Of a DNA stretch of 64,000 bases, positions 23,569 to 29,166 are shown in pieces. The position numbers and the translations under genes are program-made. Origin of the DNA: Flavobacterium sp. CBA20B-1 (lineage in GTDB: Bacteria > Bacteroidota > Bacteroidia > Flavobacteriales > Flavobacteriaceae); the NCBI RefSeq assembly GCF_028473145.1, contig NZ_CP092370.1:2356001-2420000 (forward strand). The letters run 5' to 3'. Numbering within the stretch: the stretch's first letter is position 1; each line of letters starts with the position of its first letter. The notes beneath the pieces are model-generated. The model did no database searches, was not told where the DNA came from, and saw only the letters and a list, made by a program, of their open reading frames with translations.

Positions 23569-23603
23569 TTACATCATTCCCGGCATGCCGCCGCCCATTG
23601 GCA
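23569..23603. repeat. 35-bp direct repeat, outer copy (duplicated groEL 3' end)
   Basis: This copy is identical over 35 bp to 29132-29166, the last 35 bp of groEL including its stop. It encodes the end of the GGM tail but is connected to no reading frame here. With the groEL copy it brackets the island at 23604-29131. Confidence 0.93.
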
Positions 23604-23663
23604 CTCATCTTTACTTCTGTACTGTAAAATAATTAGATAGAAAAACACAAATAATTTACCGCA

Positions 23664-23704
23664 CGACACGTTTTGTCCATCATGCTGTTTATTTTTGAAT
23701 AAAT
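23664..23704 (+). promoter_or_regulatory. Promoter/operator box upstream of the island WYL gene
   Basis: It shares CACGTTTTGTCC, then TC, and a TAnnTTTGAA -7 box (TATTTTTG at 23690-23697) at equal distances with 27727-27767 upstream of the second island operon. GACA-N5-TGTC within it is an imperfect dyad (23665-23677 region) and may be the WYL protein's binding site. Confidence 0.5.
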
Positions 23705-23713
23705 TAATTGAAT

Positions 23714-24604
23714 ATGGCAAAGCAAGACGTGATTAAAAGACAGTTTTTAATTGTAGAATTTCTACGAAAAAATCCAGCTAGTTTTAAGCAAATAAGCAAT
23801 TTTTTGCTCAATAAGCAATACGAATTAGATTATGATTTAGCCATAAGTCAACGCACTTTTCAAAGAGATTGCAACGAAATTGAATCGCTTTGGGGAGTGG
23901 AAATTGCTTTTAACAAACGCGAAAATCACTACGAAATAATCAACAATGAAAACGATTTGCATTTCGATAGAATTATGGAAGCTTTTGATACCGTGGCGGT
24001 TTTGCAAAAGGCAAAAACAATTGGCGGTTATTTACATTTAGAAAAAAGAAAATCAAAAGGAACCGAATACTTCAACGGAATTCTTCACGCCATACAAAAT
24101 CAATTAGTTGTAACATTTCAGCTAAAAAGTTATTGGCAAGCAGCATCGTTTCGCCGCTGTGTTCCCAAAGCCATTAAAGAATCGCAAAACCGCTATTATT
24201 TAATTGCTTACGATTCAGATAAAAACGATTTTAGAAATTTCGGTTTAGACCGTATCAGCGATTTCGTAATTACTTCAGAAAAACAAAAAACTCCGGAAAT
24301 TAACGTAGAGGCATTTTACCAGCATGCTTTTGGAATTGAATGTTACAACGATCCTGTGGAAATTATATTAGAATTTGCAAACGATCAAAAAAAGTATATA
24401 CAATCCTTACCGTTACATGCTTCCCAAAAAATTATAAAAGAAAACAACGAAACATTTACGGTAGCACTATTTATGCACCCAACCAATGATTTTGTGATGG
24501 AAATTATGCGTTACGGAGCTATTTGCGAAGTGATAGAACCACCCTTTTTAAGAGATCGAATAAAAAAAGAGGTAATGCAATTGCAAGAAAAATATCAATT
24601 GTAA
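23714..24604 (+). CDS. HTH-WYL transcriptional regulator
   Basis: The 296-aa protein starts at the ATG at 23714. The N-terminal winged helix (residues 1-75, with ISQRTFQRDCNEIES) is followed by a WYL domain (about 135-200: FRRCVPKAIKESQNRYYLIAYD, FGLDRISDF) and a WCX-like C-terminal part (210-295). WYL proteins sense ligands, often nucleic acids or nucleotides, and commonly control defence or DNA-repair genes. It is the first gene of the groEL island. The box before it recurs before the gene at 27777, so it may regulate both itself and that operon. A paralogue is encoded at 37106-38035. Confidence 0.9.
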   Translation: MAKQDVIKRQFLIVEFLRKNPASFKQISNFLLNKQYELDYDLAISQRTFQRDCNEIESLWGVEIAFNKRENHYEIINNENDLHFDRIMEAFDTVAVLQKAKTIGGYLHLEKRKSKGTEYFNGILHAIQNQLVVTFQLKSYWQAASFRRCVPKAIKESQNRYYLIAYDSDKNDFRNFGLDRISDFVITSEKQKTPEINVEAFYQHAFGIECYNDPVEIILEFANDQKKYIQSLPLHASQKIIKENNETFTVALFMHPTNDFVMEIMRYGAICEVIEPPFLRDRIKKEVMQLQEKYQL

Positions 24605-24659
24605 ATGTGGAAACCCGTAAACATTTGTTGAAAATTATAGTGATTTTTGGAAATAAAAT

Positions 24660-25070
24660 ATGGAATCTAAAAAGCGTTATTACATTTATATAAATTATCA
24701 AGCATGTTATGAATACCTTCATGCAGAGCCAAAGTTTTGTGAAGCTTTAGCTTACTTGCTAACTTTTGAAAAGATGTACGATTTTAAAGTATTACCTCAT
24801 ACTTCAAGTATAGAAATATCAAATGAAAACATAAAAATATTTATTGTTTTGATGAGATCTTTTCAGTTTGATAAATACGATGAAGTTAAAAATGAAAAGA
24901 ATGTACATTTTGTTTCTTTTGATAGAGCTATAGATGAACGATATGAATTCTTTATAATGAAGAATAAAATTAAGTTTATCAGCATTGGTATGTTAATGGA
25001 AACAGTATCGGCTTTAACCAATAAAGGGTTGGTAAACCAAATGCAAAATTTTAAGGATATAGGGTTTTAA
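24660..25070 (+). CDS. Unknown 136-aa island protein, paralogue A
   Basis: The protein is soluble, without signal peptide or TM segment. It is clearly paralogous to the 136-aa protein at 27777-28187: shared landmarks are FCEALAYLLTF, PHT-SIE-SN--I-IFI, KNVHFVSF, IKFIS--ML and the ending QNFK. I recognise no domain. Its gene lies between the WYL regulator (55 bp upstream) and the 270-aa protein (26 bp downstream) and is very A/T-rich. Two copies of one family in a 5.5-kb island point to a specific role in the element, but no function can be given. Confidence 0.75.
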   Translation: MESKKRYYIYINYQACYEYLHAEPKFCEALAYLLTFEKMYDFKVLPHTSSIEISNENIKIFIVLMRSFQFDKYDEVKNEKNVHFVSFDRAIDERYEFFIMKNKIKFISIGMLMETVSALTNKGLVNQMQNFKDIGF

Positions 25071-25096
25071 ATTAAATTTATAAAAACAATACAAAC

Positions 25097-25909
25097 ATGA
25101 GAAATATGAATTATTCAAGAGAGTTTAAAGATGCTGTAAGTTTTGCAAACGAGCATAACTTATTTTTAGGATATGGAAATCCTAATGGGAAAATTTTAAT
25201 GATTGGTAAAGAGCATTATTTTTACCATAACCATAAACAAGATACGAAAGAGTTTTATGAAGAAATATTAAATTCTAGAAATAAGGAAAATAGGAACAAT
25301 ATTCATTCATGGGAAAATAATATTAAGGAAAATTATGAATTTGATTGGAACGTCAGAATAGAAAGTTTTCTAGACAATAGTAATGCAATTACTGCTTGGT
25401 GGAACCAAAAGAATAAACAAGATAGAAATGGAAATGGGGGAACTAGTAATACTTACTTACATTATCAAAAAATTTATCAAAATGTTTTTTTAAATGGTAA
25501 TACTCAAAGTAATATTAACTTTCAAAGAGAAATTTTCACTACAGAACTAAACGATGTGCCTTCTGGAAGAAGCTACAATCTATTAGAATTGAAAAAATTG
25601 AGAACAGAATCTATTGAAAAAAGGAAAGATTTATTCCGTAAAGATTTTTTTAGAACTTTTCCTGTAGTGATAATTGCTTCAGGGCATTATCCACGTGATT
25701 ACAATTTTGATATTGAAGATATTTTTGAAGTAAAGTTCTTTGAAGAAACTAAAATAGTTGGAAAGTCTTGGTATAATTTACATTATAGTTCAGATGGACA
25801 AAGGATGCTAGTACATACAAGACAATTAAGTACATCTGTTTCAACAGAGCTTATAACATCATTGAGTAATGAAATAAAAGAATTCCTAAATAGATTATCC
25901 AAAAAATAA
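25097..25909 (+). CDS. Unknown 270-aa island protein, possibly with a uracil-DNA-glycosylase-like fold
   Basis: The protein is soluble and hydrophilic, with no signal peptide. The N-terminus reads GYGNPNGKILMIGKE (about 25-39), which resembles the first strand and motif of the UDG superfamily. Later it has FPVVIIASGHYP (about 190) and a terminal MLVHTRQLS (about 235), where UDG-like proteins carry their second and third motifs. These matches are weak and made by eye, so the fold is a guess. The gene is 6 bp from the exonuclease gene downstream, so the two are probably co-expressed. Confidence 0.6.
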   Translation: MRNMNYSREFKDAVSFANEHNLFLGYGNPNGKILMIGKEHYFYHNHKQDTKEFYEEILNSRNKENRNNIHSWENNIKENYEFDWNVRIESFLDNSNAITAWWNQKNKQDRNGNGGTSNTYLHYQKIYQNVFLNGNTQSNINFQREIFTTELNDVPSGRSYNLLELKKLRTESIEKRKDLFRKDFFRTFPVVIIASGHYPRDYNFDIEDIFEVKFFEETKIVGKSWYNLHYSSDGQRMLVHTRQLSTSVSTELITSLSNEIKEFLNRLSKK

Positions 25910-28187: not shown

Positions 28188-28191
28188 CCTG

Positions 28192-28213
28192 CAAGGTCTA
28201 TTCGACCTTGTAT
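28192..28213. repeat. Short palindrome between island genes
   Basis: GCAAGGTC-TATTC-GACCTTGT forms a 7-8 bp hairpin without a strong T run. It may be a weak terminator or a dispersed palindromic repeat. Confidence 0.4.
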
Positions 28214-28238
28214 GTTTGCAAAATAAATTAAAAGAGTA

Positions 28239-28535
28239 ATGAAAAAACTCTACTTAGACGATTTGCGTCCTATTCCCGAAGGATTTATCGGTGTGCGTTC
28301 TTATACTGAATTTGTAGATTATATTACCCAAAACGGGTTACCTGATTTTATTTCGTTTGATCACGATTTGGGTTTAGAAGAAAGTGGTTTTGATTGTGCT
28401 AAATGGTTGGTGAATTATTGTTTAGACAACAGAAAAAAAATGCCTGATTTTATAGTTCATAGTCAAAATCCAGTTGGTAAACAAAATATTAAAAGTTTAC
28501 TAAATAACTTCAGAAAAAAACACAATGATTATTGA
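28239..28535 (+). CDS. cREC-like (conflict-associated receiver) single-domain protein
   Basis: The 98-aa protein resembles a receiver domain: acidic N-terminal LYLDDLR (residues 3-9), phospho-acceptor-like FDHDLG (about 45-50), and SQNPVGKQNIKSLL (about 80) at the place of the conserved Lys. This is the cREC type described in conflict-system surveys, which occurs alone or beside effectors. There is no output domain. Its gene overlaps the metallophosphoesterase gene by 11 bp, so the two are translationally coupled and probably act together. Confidence 0.7.
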   Translation: MKKLYLDDLRPIPEGFIGVRSYTEFVDYITQNGLPDFISFDHDLGLEESGFDCAKWLVNYCLDNRKKMPDFIVHSQNPVGKQNIKSLLNNFRKKHNDY

Positions 28536-29082
28536 TTATAACCAAAAGCGGTTGGCTGTTTTTGCTGATACGCACGGTAAACATAGAAAACTACCGCTTA
28601 TAAAAACCGATATTGCTATTCATTTAGGCGATGCTTGTACATTAGGAAACAATTCACAATTCTCTGATTTTTTAGATTGGTTCAGTCAATATCCTGCAAA
28701 GTATAAATTGTTTGTAGCAGGAAATCATGAGCTGCAATGGATGTATGAACCAGATGAGTTTTTAAAAATGTTTCCACCAAATATTATCTTTTTAGAAAAT
28801 AGAAATATATTATTAGAAGGAATAAATTTTGCGTCTGTTGCAGCAAGAATGAATTTATCAAAGTATCCAAGAATAAAGCTTTCTAAAAAAGTAGATTTTT
28901 TGCTGACCCACGCGCCTCCAACTGGAATTTTAGATAATGGTTTTGGTTGTGCTGTTTTAAAAAAGTTTGTAACTAAAATAAAACCAGCCTATCATCTTTT
29001 TGGTCATGTTCACGAAACAGGTGGAACATATTTAAAAAGAGATGAAACAATATTCATGAATGTTTCTGTATTTAATCAATAA
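28525..29082 (+). CDS. Calcineurin-like metallophosphoesterase
   Basis: The 185-aa protein has the metal-binding motifs in order: ADTHGKH (about 13), HLGDACTLGNN (about 32), AGNHE (about 67), LTHAPPTG (about 130) and LFGHVHETGG (about 155). It would hydrolyse phosphodiester or phosphomonoester bonds; cyclic nucleotides or nucleic acids are possible substrates. It is the last island gene. Its start overlaps the cREC-like gene, and a terminator lies right behind it. Confidence 0.85.
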   Translation: MIIDYNQKRLAVFADTHGKHRKLPLIKTDIAIHLGDACTLGNNSQFSDFLDWFSQYPAKYKLFVAGNHELQWMYEPDEFLKMFPPNIIFLENRNILLEGINFASVAARMNLSKYPRIKLSKKVDFLLTHAPPTGILDNGFGCAVLKKFVTKIKPAYHLFGHVHETGGTYLKRDETIFMNVSVFNQ

Positions 29083-29112
29083 AAAAATCCGAGCAAACAC
29101 TCGAATTTTTTG
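29083..29112. terminator. Bidirectional terminator at the island/groEL junction
   Basis: AAATCCGAG, a 6-nt loop and CTCGAATTT with A and T tracts serve both the metallophosphoesterase gene and groEL. It lies inside the island, 20 bp from the groEL stop. Confidence 0.75.
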
Positions 29113-29131
29113 TTTTATTCAAATATGATTT

Positions 29132-29166
29132 TTACATCATTCCCGGCATGCCGCCGCCCATTGGCA
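29132..29166. repeat. 35-bp direct repeat, groEL copy
   Basis: These are the last 35 bp of groEL, identical to 23569-23603. They encode [10 protein letters not shown] and the TAA stop. Confidence 0.93.

Follow-up and report, generated by a model that had tools for sequence, protein, structure and literature searches.

What process leaves a second copy of the end of the chaperonin gene groEL on the far side of an eight-gene island, with groEL itself intact? The question is raised by a stretch of 64,000 nucleotides from Flavobacterium sp. CBA20B-1 (contig NZ_CP092370.1, positions 2,356,001 to 2,420,000), which we refer to as the window; the genome containing it, of 3.04 Mb, is designated G000. 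An earlier note on this DNA, made from the letters alone, had read the arrangement as an integrating element with an attachment site at the 3′ end of a gene. Repeats of the groEL end recur behind groEL in other Flavobacteriales, directly oriented and accompanied by differing cargoes, and in most of the pairs compared the shared cassettes are more alike than the groEL genes of their hosts. Our preferred explanation, to which we assign a probability of about 0.6, is the recurrent insertion, exchange and loss of cassettes at the groEL end by homologous recombination in repeats composed of the groEL tail and a terminator. We infer that the window and the arrays of Chryseobacterium described below are products of one process, that the cassettes have been transferred, and that RecA recombination performed the exchange.

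According to this explanation, the groEL 3′ end and an intrinsic terminator would together form the boundary unit of gene cassettes located behind groEL in Flavobacteriales. An incoming piece would bring or recreate the gene end and the terminator, and groEL would stay whole because one copy always completes it; the old groEL end would be pushed downstream along with whatever followed. The exchange would be ordinary homologous (RecA) recombination in the tail-terminator repeats with DNA from relatives, and would involve no recombinase of its own. The window would then contain one cassette, a defence-like island of eight genes in two groups with a WYL regulator; the arrays of mostly one-gene cassettes in Chryseobacterium would have been built by the same process.

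The duplicated groEL end in the window

The segments at 23569–23603 and 29132–29166 are identical over all 35 bp when compared within the window, as the earlier note had claimed. Such a pair was obtained in none of 100 shuffles of the window, and with up to three mismatches allowed the 35-mer has exactly two sites in the whole of G000, both at the window pair, rather than matches at many unrelated places. The proximal copy is the true end of groEL including its stop codon (groEL, 29132–30760, minus strand), and groEL is intact at 542 aa. The distal copy is an orphan beyond eight open reading frames (ORFs), near the host gene that flanks the island at this end (23164–23511, forward strand). This gene encodes a small metal-binding protein of the HMA type, with no Pfam match and weak, sub-cut-off matches of the CopZ/MerP type. 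The proposal that a terminator lies at each end of the island also held: a terminator scan identified hairpins at 23522–23548 (T1, forward strand), adjoining the orphan groEL end, and at 29082–29111 (T2, minus strand), directly behind groEL. Judged by their alignment, T1 and T2 appear to be related copies; past the stop codon the two window copies reach a local score of 16.5 over the next 90 bp, and the best of 200 shuffles reached 14.0. Because the repeat continues past the stop into the terminator, the 35 bp are the best-kept part and intact core of a longer and partly decayed duplication comprising the groEL 3′ end and its intrinsic terminator. The G+C content of the island is 27–33% in steps of 1 kb, compared with 34–41% in the surroundings.

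Relatives within the genus

The nearest relative found, G022, carries the same eight island genes at the same place. Its repeat spans the groEL end and the terminator with a local score of 47.0 (best of 200 shuffles, 15.5). Both copies in G022 have T at repeat position 13 and a common terminator stem, and both window copies have C at that position. Such species-specific letters, shared by the two copies of one genome, ask for exchange between the copies or for a separate insertion in each species. Between G022 and the window, the flanks are 77–98% identical at 4-fold sites. The corresponding values within the island, whose genes are described below, are 93% for the first 136-aa gene (copy a) and the 270-aa gene, 76% for the exonuclease, 72% for the second 136-aa gene (copy b), 66% for the WYL regulator, 65% for the cREC protein, 64% for the metallophosphoesterase and 58% for the PD-(D/E)XK nuclease. 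The island is a mosaic, as if blocks had been exchanged after the species split. A frameshift interrupts the first 136-aa gene of G022 (L033, 17058–17464).

Other relatives have different genes at this site. In G027, genes for an aldehyde dehydrogenase and a DUF779 protein occupy the place of the island, and an HMA homologue is located downstream of groEL in 15 of the 19 genus genomes that were fetched, with differing genes in between. groEL stands directly beside the HMA gene in none of these 19 relatives. The comparison of groEL downstream regions that the earlier note had recommended thus yielded other cargoes at the same place and no exact empty site.

Of the 398 genus genomes, three (G000, G022 and G142) carry the degenerate 35-mer twice and five have a second exact copy of the groEL-tail 18-mer; the reversed control gave 0/398 in both searches. 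The second 18-mer of G033 was rejected as a chance match and dropped from the count; it lies on another contig, inside a gene that we take to be amylase-like. When two mismatches are allowed, the 18-mer produces scattered matches on both strands, and the controls do so as well; counts were therefore limited to exact copies and profile matches. Orphan groEL tails are present downstream of groEL in four further genus genomes (G225, G009, G019 and G142), those of G009 and G019 having been detected by aligning the groEL end across the 19 fetched regions. The likeness of the terminators is 25.0 in G225 (best of 200 shuffles, 15.5), 45.0 in G009 (16.5) and 51.5 in G019 (16.5), and the repeat runs into the terminator in five of the six cases in the genus, namely G000, G022, G225, G009 and G019. 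In G142, the cargo is unrelated and lies behind a presumably DedA-like gene and the terminator of that gene. In G225 (L057), the orphan lies between two genes that are 72% identical and encode a protein of roughly 800 aa, and in G009 (L050) it lies between two 792-aa ORFs that are alike at their starts. Both arrangements likely reflect tandem duplication of a gene plus the groEL tail.

Cassette arrays in Chryseobacterium

Across 326 genomes from the order, two to four exact copies of the 18-mer were found in 11 of 33 Chryseobacterium genomes (the 33 counted by eye; reversed control 0), and outside this genus two 18-mers occur in G000 and G446 only. G446 belongs to another family, and its two exact groEL-tail 18-mers are on separate contigs (C14 and C16). 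All 28 stretches with the array motif in named genomes are from Chryseobacterium, and at least two exact copies of the tail-hairpin motif are present in 46 of 173 Chryseobacterium genomes (counted twice by eye), as against 0/173 for the reversed motif.

For the description of the arrays, 32 loci from 31 genomes were selected for having copies. A profile recognises 109 copies in these loci, 90 of them full and 19 partial, all in the groEL sense, and the reversed sequence gives 0; a whole and intact groEL is recognised in 30 of the 32 loci. In order, a unit comprises the final 60–250 bp of groEL with its stop, then a 5-bp hairpin, a spacer and a terminator. How much of groEL is duplicated varies, from 35 bp in the window to 59–247 bp in the Chryseobacterium orphans, the pattern expected of homologous or illegitimate joining. 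As a control, a repeat of the final 66 bp of other ORFs was sought in their own locus and found in 3 of 191 cases; for the groEL end the count is 30 of 30, the loci having been picked for that property. With at most one mismatch, the spacer motif has 28 matches in 12 whole genomes, all of which are at the array by position; two of the genomes have none, and the reversed motif has 2.

The 77 units between copies have a median length of 1138 bp; one ORF of at least 60 aa is present in 51 of them and none in 8. Among ORFs of at least 90 aa, 102 have the orientation of groEL and 6 the opposite one, and the 102 represent 73 families. Seventeen families have more than one member, with 46 members in all, one split gene being counted twice. 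After the terminator, a leader of approximately 150 bp (TATGGTTTTCCGTAAGGAAATA...) precedes different genes, and 41 of the 109 copies fall into one similarity group, which was formed by single linkage and may be chained. In the 12 genomes, all seven matches to the leader with at most one mismatch are in the array; looser matches occur elsewhere too, and the reversed motif has 3. The strains CC29 and KCTC 22544 of Chryseobacterium lathyri were considered as an empty-site comparison and rejected, because the stretch that they share is the conserved leader before different genes.

Units of 258–279 bp without an ORF occur in L171, L172, L174, L185, L187 and L190. Four ORF-less units (258–260 bp), from three species, contain a 33-bp palindrome, with one change in one copy, and have an identical groEL breakpoint; these palindrome units could encode a small RNA or be a remnant of recombination. 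Rfam gave no matches in three array loci. A transposable prophage is located within the cassette row of G443 (L183, L184; C4, 30.5–68.5 kb).

The 5-bp stem just past the stop varies in its letters and is mostly paired. The paired cells number 350 of 440; when the right arms are re-dealt, in a shuffle that ignores the relatedness of the copies, the mean is 278.7 and the maximum 305. At least four of the five stem pairs are kept in 43 of 58 orphans and in 23 of 30 real groEL ends. In two genes (in G686 and G549), the gene's own stop codon is fused directly to the hairpin.

Movement of cassettes between species is suggested by the degree of likeness at 4-fold sites. In 12 of 14 hand-picked pairs, the cassette is more alike than the groEL of the two hosts, the clearest case being 1.00 vs 0.68 (G443/G785), and some cassettes seem to have moved between species. 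Alignment of two cassette pairs places the right end of the shared block at the groEL stop/hairpin and its left end close to the hairpin/terminator. Beside shared genes, the average likeness of tail, hairpin and terminator is close to that of random tails (20–21 of 38 pairs measurable), with the exception of the stretch 110–160 bp before the stop, where the likeness is higher (0.65–0.66 vs 0.56). A likeness of the repeats at the random level fits crossovers inside the tail-terminator repeat.

Searches for a recombinase and for related mobile elements

No integrase or other recombinase was found among the eight window genes by Pfam, NCBIfam, PHROGs and PADLOC, the two 136-aa proteins remaining without a family, which agrees with the earlier note. 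In the arrays, no recombinase was found in the 25 of 59 Pfam families covered for the 102 cassette ORFs, in 10 of the ORFs of the three largest units or in 10 distal ORFs. IntI was likewise absent from these results for the array loci; whole genomes were not searched for IntI.

With E values of up to 10, the groEL end matches 34 plasmid records and 135 phage records, and the best 20 of the 34 and the best 20 of the 135 are short matches. Among the plasmid records, the top match (35 bp, 94%, Acetoanaerobium noterae) was set aside as the real end of a groEL. IMG/VR contains 81 stretches with a groEL tail; 78 of the 80 examined match groEL, with 50–71% identity to that of the window, and some of the stretches are presumably staphylococcal islands. 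A second tail copy on the same strand with at most two mismatches was present in 0 of the 80.

Alternative explanations

We consider homologous recombination likelier than an unseen integrase, and it accounts for tails of varying length, for repeats that have been homogenised, for the mosaic structure of the island and for the fact that no recombinase has so far been found. Several observations weigh against this explanation. No exact insertion has been seen, and no pair of strains with and without one cassette was found. The likeness of the window terminators only just exceeds that of shuffles (16.5 vs 14.0), and the G142 orphan is without the terminator part, its score being 7.0 vs 12.5 for the best shuffle, so that the likeness stops at the groEL end. 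The window cargo is oriented opposite to groEL, unlike the Chryseobacterium cassettes. The cassette pairs compared with groEL were selected by hand, 15 from among 38 that already had at least 80% identity, and groEL could be compared for 14 of them. A likeness of 85% or more in the leader before shared genes is reached by no more than 11 of the 33 pairs for which there is a value. G225 may be explained by simple tandem duplication. The two aligned pairs that end right at the stop/hairpin and the two stop-to-hairpin fusions would also suit a site-specific cut, and a recombinase could act from elsewhere in the genome, the scan having covered window, cassette and distal ORFs and, for the cassettes, 25 of the 59 Pfam families.

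The last of these points lead to a different explanation, in which a dedicated site-specific recombinase encoded elsewhere, or by a helper phage, a satellite or an integrative and conjugative element, inserts cassettes at a core formed by the groEL stop and the hairpin, in the manner of integrases that act at the 3′ ends of genes. Such an enzyme would explain the sharp right ends of the two aligned pairs, the fusions of two genes and the hairpin itself, whose pairing is kept as its letters change in excess of every shuffle (with relatedness ignored); the units with mostly one ORF and the ORFs with mostly one orientation are in line with it, and staphylococcal islands employ an integrase at the final 18 bp of groEL (PMC8125051). 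However, no recombinase is encoded in the scanned window and cassette ORFs, the duplicated groEL piece ranges from 35 bp to about 250 bp, and the repeats beside shared cassettes resemble random ones. We therefore hold this explanation to be tentative and rather improbable. The same doubt applies to its broadest form, in which the groEL 3′ end of Flavobacteriales would be the universal docking site of an unrecognised, integron-like cassette system, with a dedicated recombinase acting at the stop-hairpin core and each cassette ending in a groEL tail, a terminator and, between them, a hairpin that is hypervariable in sequence yet mostly paired.

Tandem duplication in place of the groEL end and the next gene, followed by deletions that left a stray end beyond the island, appears less probable again. 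It agrees with the 72% identical genes on either side of the G225 orphan and with the two 792-aa ORFs of similar start around that of G009, but the window genes at the two repeats are unrelated (a small metal-binding protein and a metallophosphoesterase), and the 102 Chryseobacterium cassette ORFs belong to 73 families. A classical attL/attR integrative element at groEL, confined to one clade and deprived of its integrase, is very improbable. The perfect direct repeat at a gene end and a cargo of low G+C content and defence type are what such an element would leave; on the other hand, the island has no trace of an integrase, the G022 repeat includes the terminator and the letters of that species, the mosaic island points to repeated exchange instead of one decayed element, and similar boundary units are found again next to other cargoes. 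From the integrating-element reading of the earlier note, we retain the insertion at the groEL 3′ end that leaves a copy of the gene end on the far side, together with the presence of other genes there in other genomes. We do not retain the classical self-contained element, given that the eight genes include no recombinase, the duplicated length varies and no exact empty site was found.

Comparison with known systems

groEL had been regarded in the earlier note as an unusual target, but it has precedents. In staphylococci, the groEL 3′ end is also the integration site of phage-inducible islands, whose attachment (att) site overlaps with the final 18 bp of the gene (PMC8125051). These islands carry an integrase and an excisionase, and one of them, SeCI-SE48, is packaged by a phage. 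Staphylococcal resistance islands at the groEL end, the fusB islands, have a 21-bp att sequence (PMC4651549). The repeat in the window likewise starts with the final 18 bp of the groEL there. Unlike SeCI-SE48 and the fusB islands, the window island has no integrase that we could find and a repeat that includes the terminator, and Chryseobacterium has rows of many one-gene cassettes. The shared use of the 18 bp may be convergence, the groEL end being highly conserved. Compared with an integrase-borne island or phage-inducible chromosomal island in general, the locus has direct repeats of the target end at both borders, but it has neither a recombinase inside nor a constant repeat length.

Integron arrays and clusters of attC sites lacking integron-integrases (CALIN) are rows of mostly single genes in the same orientation, each closed by a repeated hairpin element. 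The Chryseobacterium cassettes are similar in being mostly single-gene, mostly of one orientation, closed by a repeat with a hairpin and shared between species; they differ in that this repeat consists of part of a housekeeping gene together with its terminator and in that no IntI was seen in the scanned loci, and the window cargo differs in being multi-gene and opposite to groEL. In the orphan-tip arrays of Rhs and CdiA, displaced C-terminal ends follow an intact parent gene, and the tip itself is the variable cargo. An intact groEL followed by directly oriented orphan 3′ ends, each with its own cargo, resembles these arrays, but the groEL tail is constant, the cargo is the gene behind it and there is no variable C-terminal toxin at the tip. 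Chromosomal hotspots consist of variable genes between conserved genes and are filled by homologous recombination, and the variable genes between the conserved neighbours groEL and HMA fit this description; to our knowledge, however, hotspots do not duplicate the end of a flanking gene at their boundaries.

In the literature that we searched, we found no description of groEL-tail repeat arrays in Bacteroidota. If our explanation is correct, variable genes of a common genus form an orderly and apparently undescribed row of cassettes, which was reached from one 35-bp repeat in another genus, and the cassette platform is anchored on an essential gene and so far has no integrase of its own. The groEL tail, hairpin and terminator would then be a marker for locating accessory and defence genes, and the arrays would make it possible to test directly whether genes can be exchanged in an integron-like way by plain recombination.

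Cargo of the island and of the arrays

All eight genes of the island are on the forward strand, opposite to groEL, and form two groups. The first group begins with a WYL/WCX transcription regulator (23714–24604; Pfam and PADLOC WYL), followed by a 136-aa protein (copy a, 24660–25070), a 270-aa protein (25097–25909), a DEDDh exonuclease (25916–26407; Pfam RNase_T, PADLOC DEDDh and PDC-S48) and a PD-(D/E)XK nuclease (26438–27676; Pfam PDDEXK_4), which is the phage-defence candidate PDC-S26 (PADLOC E value 1.7e-94). The second group comprises another 136-aa protein (copy b, 27777–28187), a cREC (cyclic-phosphate processing receiver) protein (28239–28535; Pfam) and a metallophosphoesterase (28525–29082; Pfam), which PADLOC assigns to the phage-defence candidate PDC-S10. 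Copies a and b are paralogues with 49% identity, to which Pfam assigns no family. Through these PADLOC candidate families, the cargo can be described as defence-like; it includes one WYL regulator and one protein with a putative uracil-DNA-glycosylase fold.

The latter is the 270-aa protein, which probably has a fold like that of uracil/thymine-DNA glycosylases. Its AlphaFold model (mean confidence, pLDDT, 89.4) has human thymine-DNA glycosylase as its top Foldseek match (E value 7e-4, probability 1.00, TM-score 0.42 by query length), and its family carries the motif GxGNPNxKIL. Relatives are present in 29 of the 398 genus genomes at E values of at most 0.001, its own genome included and the weakest matches being doubtful, and all except that of G022 have at most 41% identity; a tblastn search of named genomes gave no relatives. 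Relatives of the PD-(D/E)XK nuclease on plasmids comprise 18 records, each with less than 60% identity and none covering 80% of the query.

Each gene group is preceded by one exact copy of the motif CACGTTTTGTCCRTC. The copy upstream of the WYL gene is at 23667–23681 (CACGTTTTGTCCATC, forward strand) and that upstream of the second group at 27730–27744 (CACGTTTTGTCCGTC, forward strand). With at most one mismatch, the motif has three sites in G000, of which two are exact and both of these are in the island; in G022, it is present at both corresponding places, once with a mismatch. The reversed motif at the same threshold has 2 matches in G000 and 1 in G022. The motif is a probable operator of the WYL regulator, and the two CACGTTTTGTCC sites are its putative binding sites. 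In a promoter scan, matches were rarer than in shuffles.

The Pfam families of the cassette ORFs in Chryseobacterium (25 of 59 families, 102 ORFs) include hydrolases, BNR and Kelch proteins, restriction proteins and AAA proteins, with many unknown. At the distal ends of the rows (L171, L172, L180, L181 and L182), the defence candidates PDC-S15, PDC-M29A, DzbA and DndB/DpdB-like are present, and a match to AbiU2 below the cut-off was also obtained at a distal row end. Small regulators that we take to be XRE-like lie near several of the distal defence candidates.

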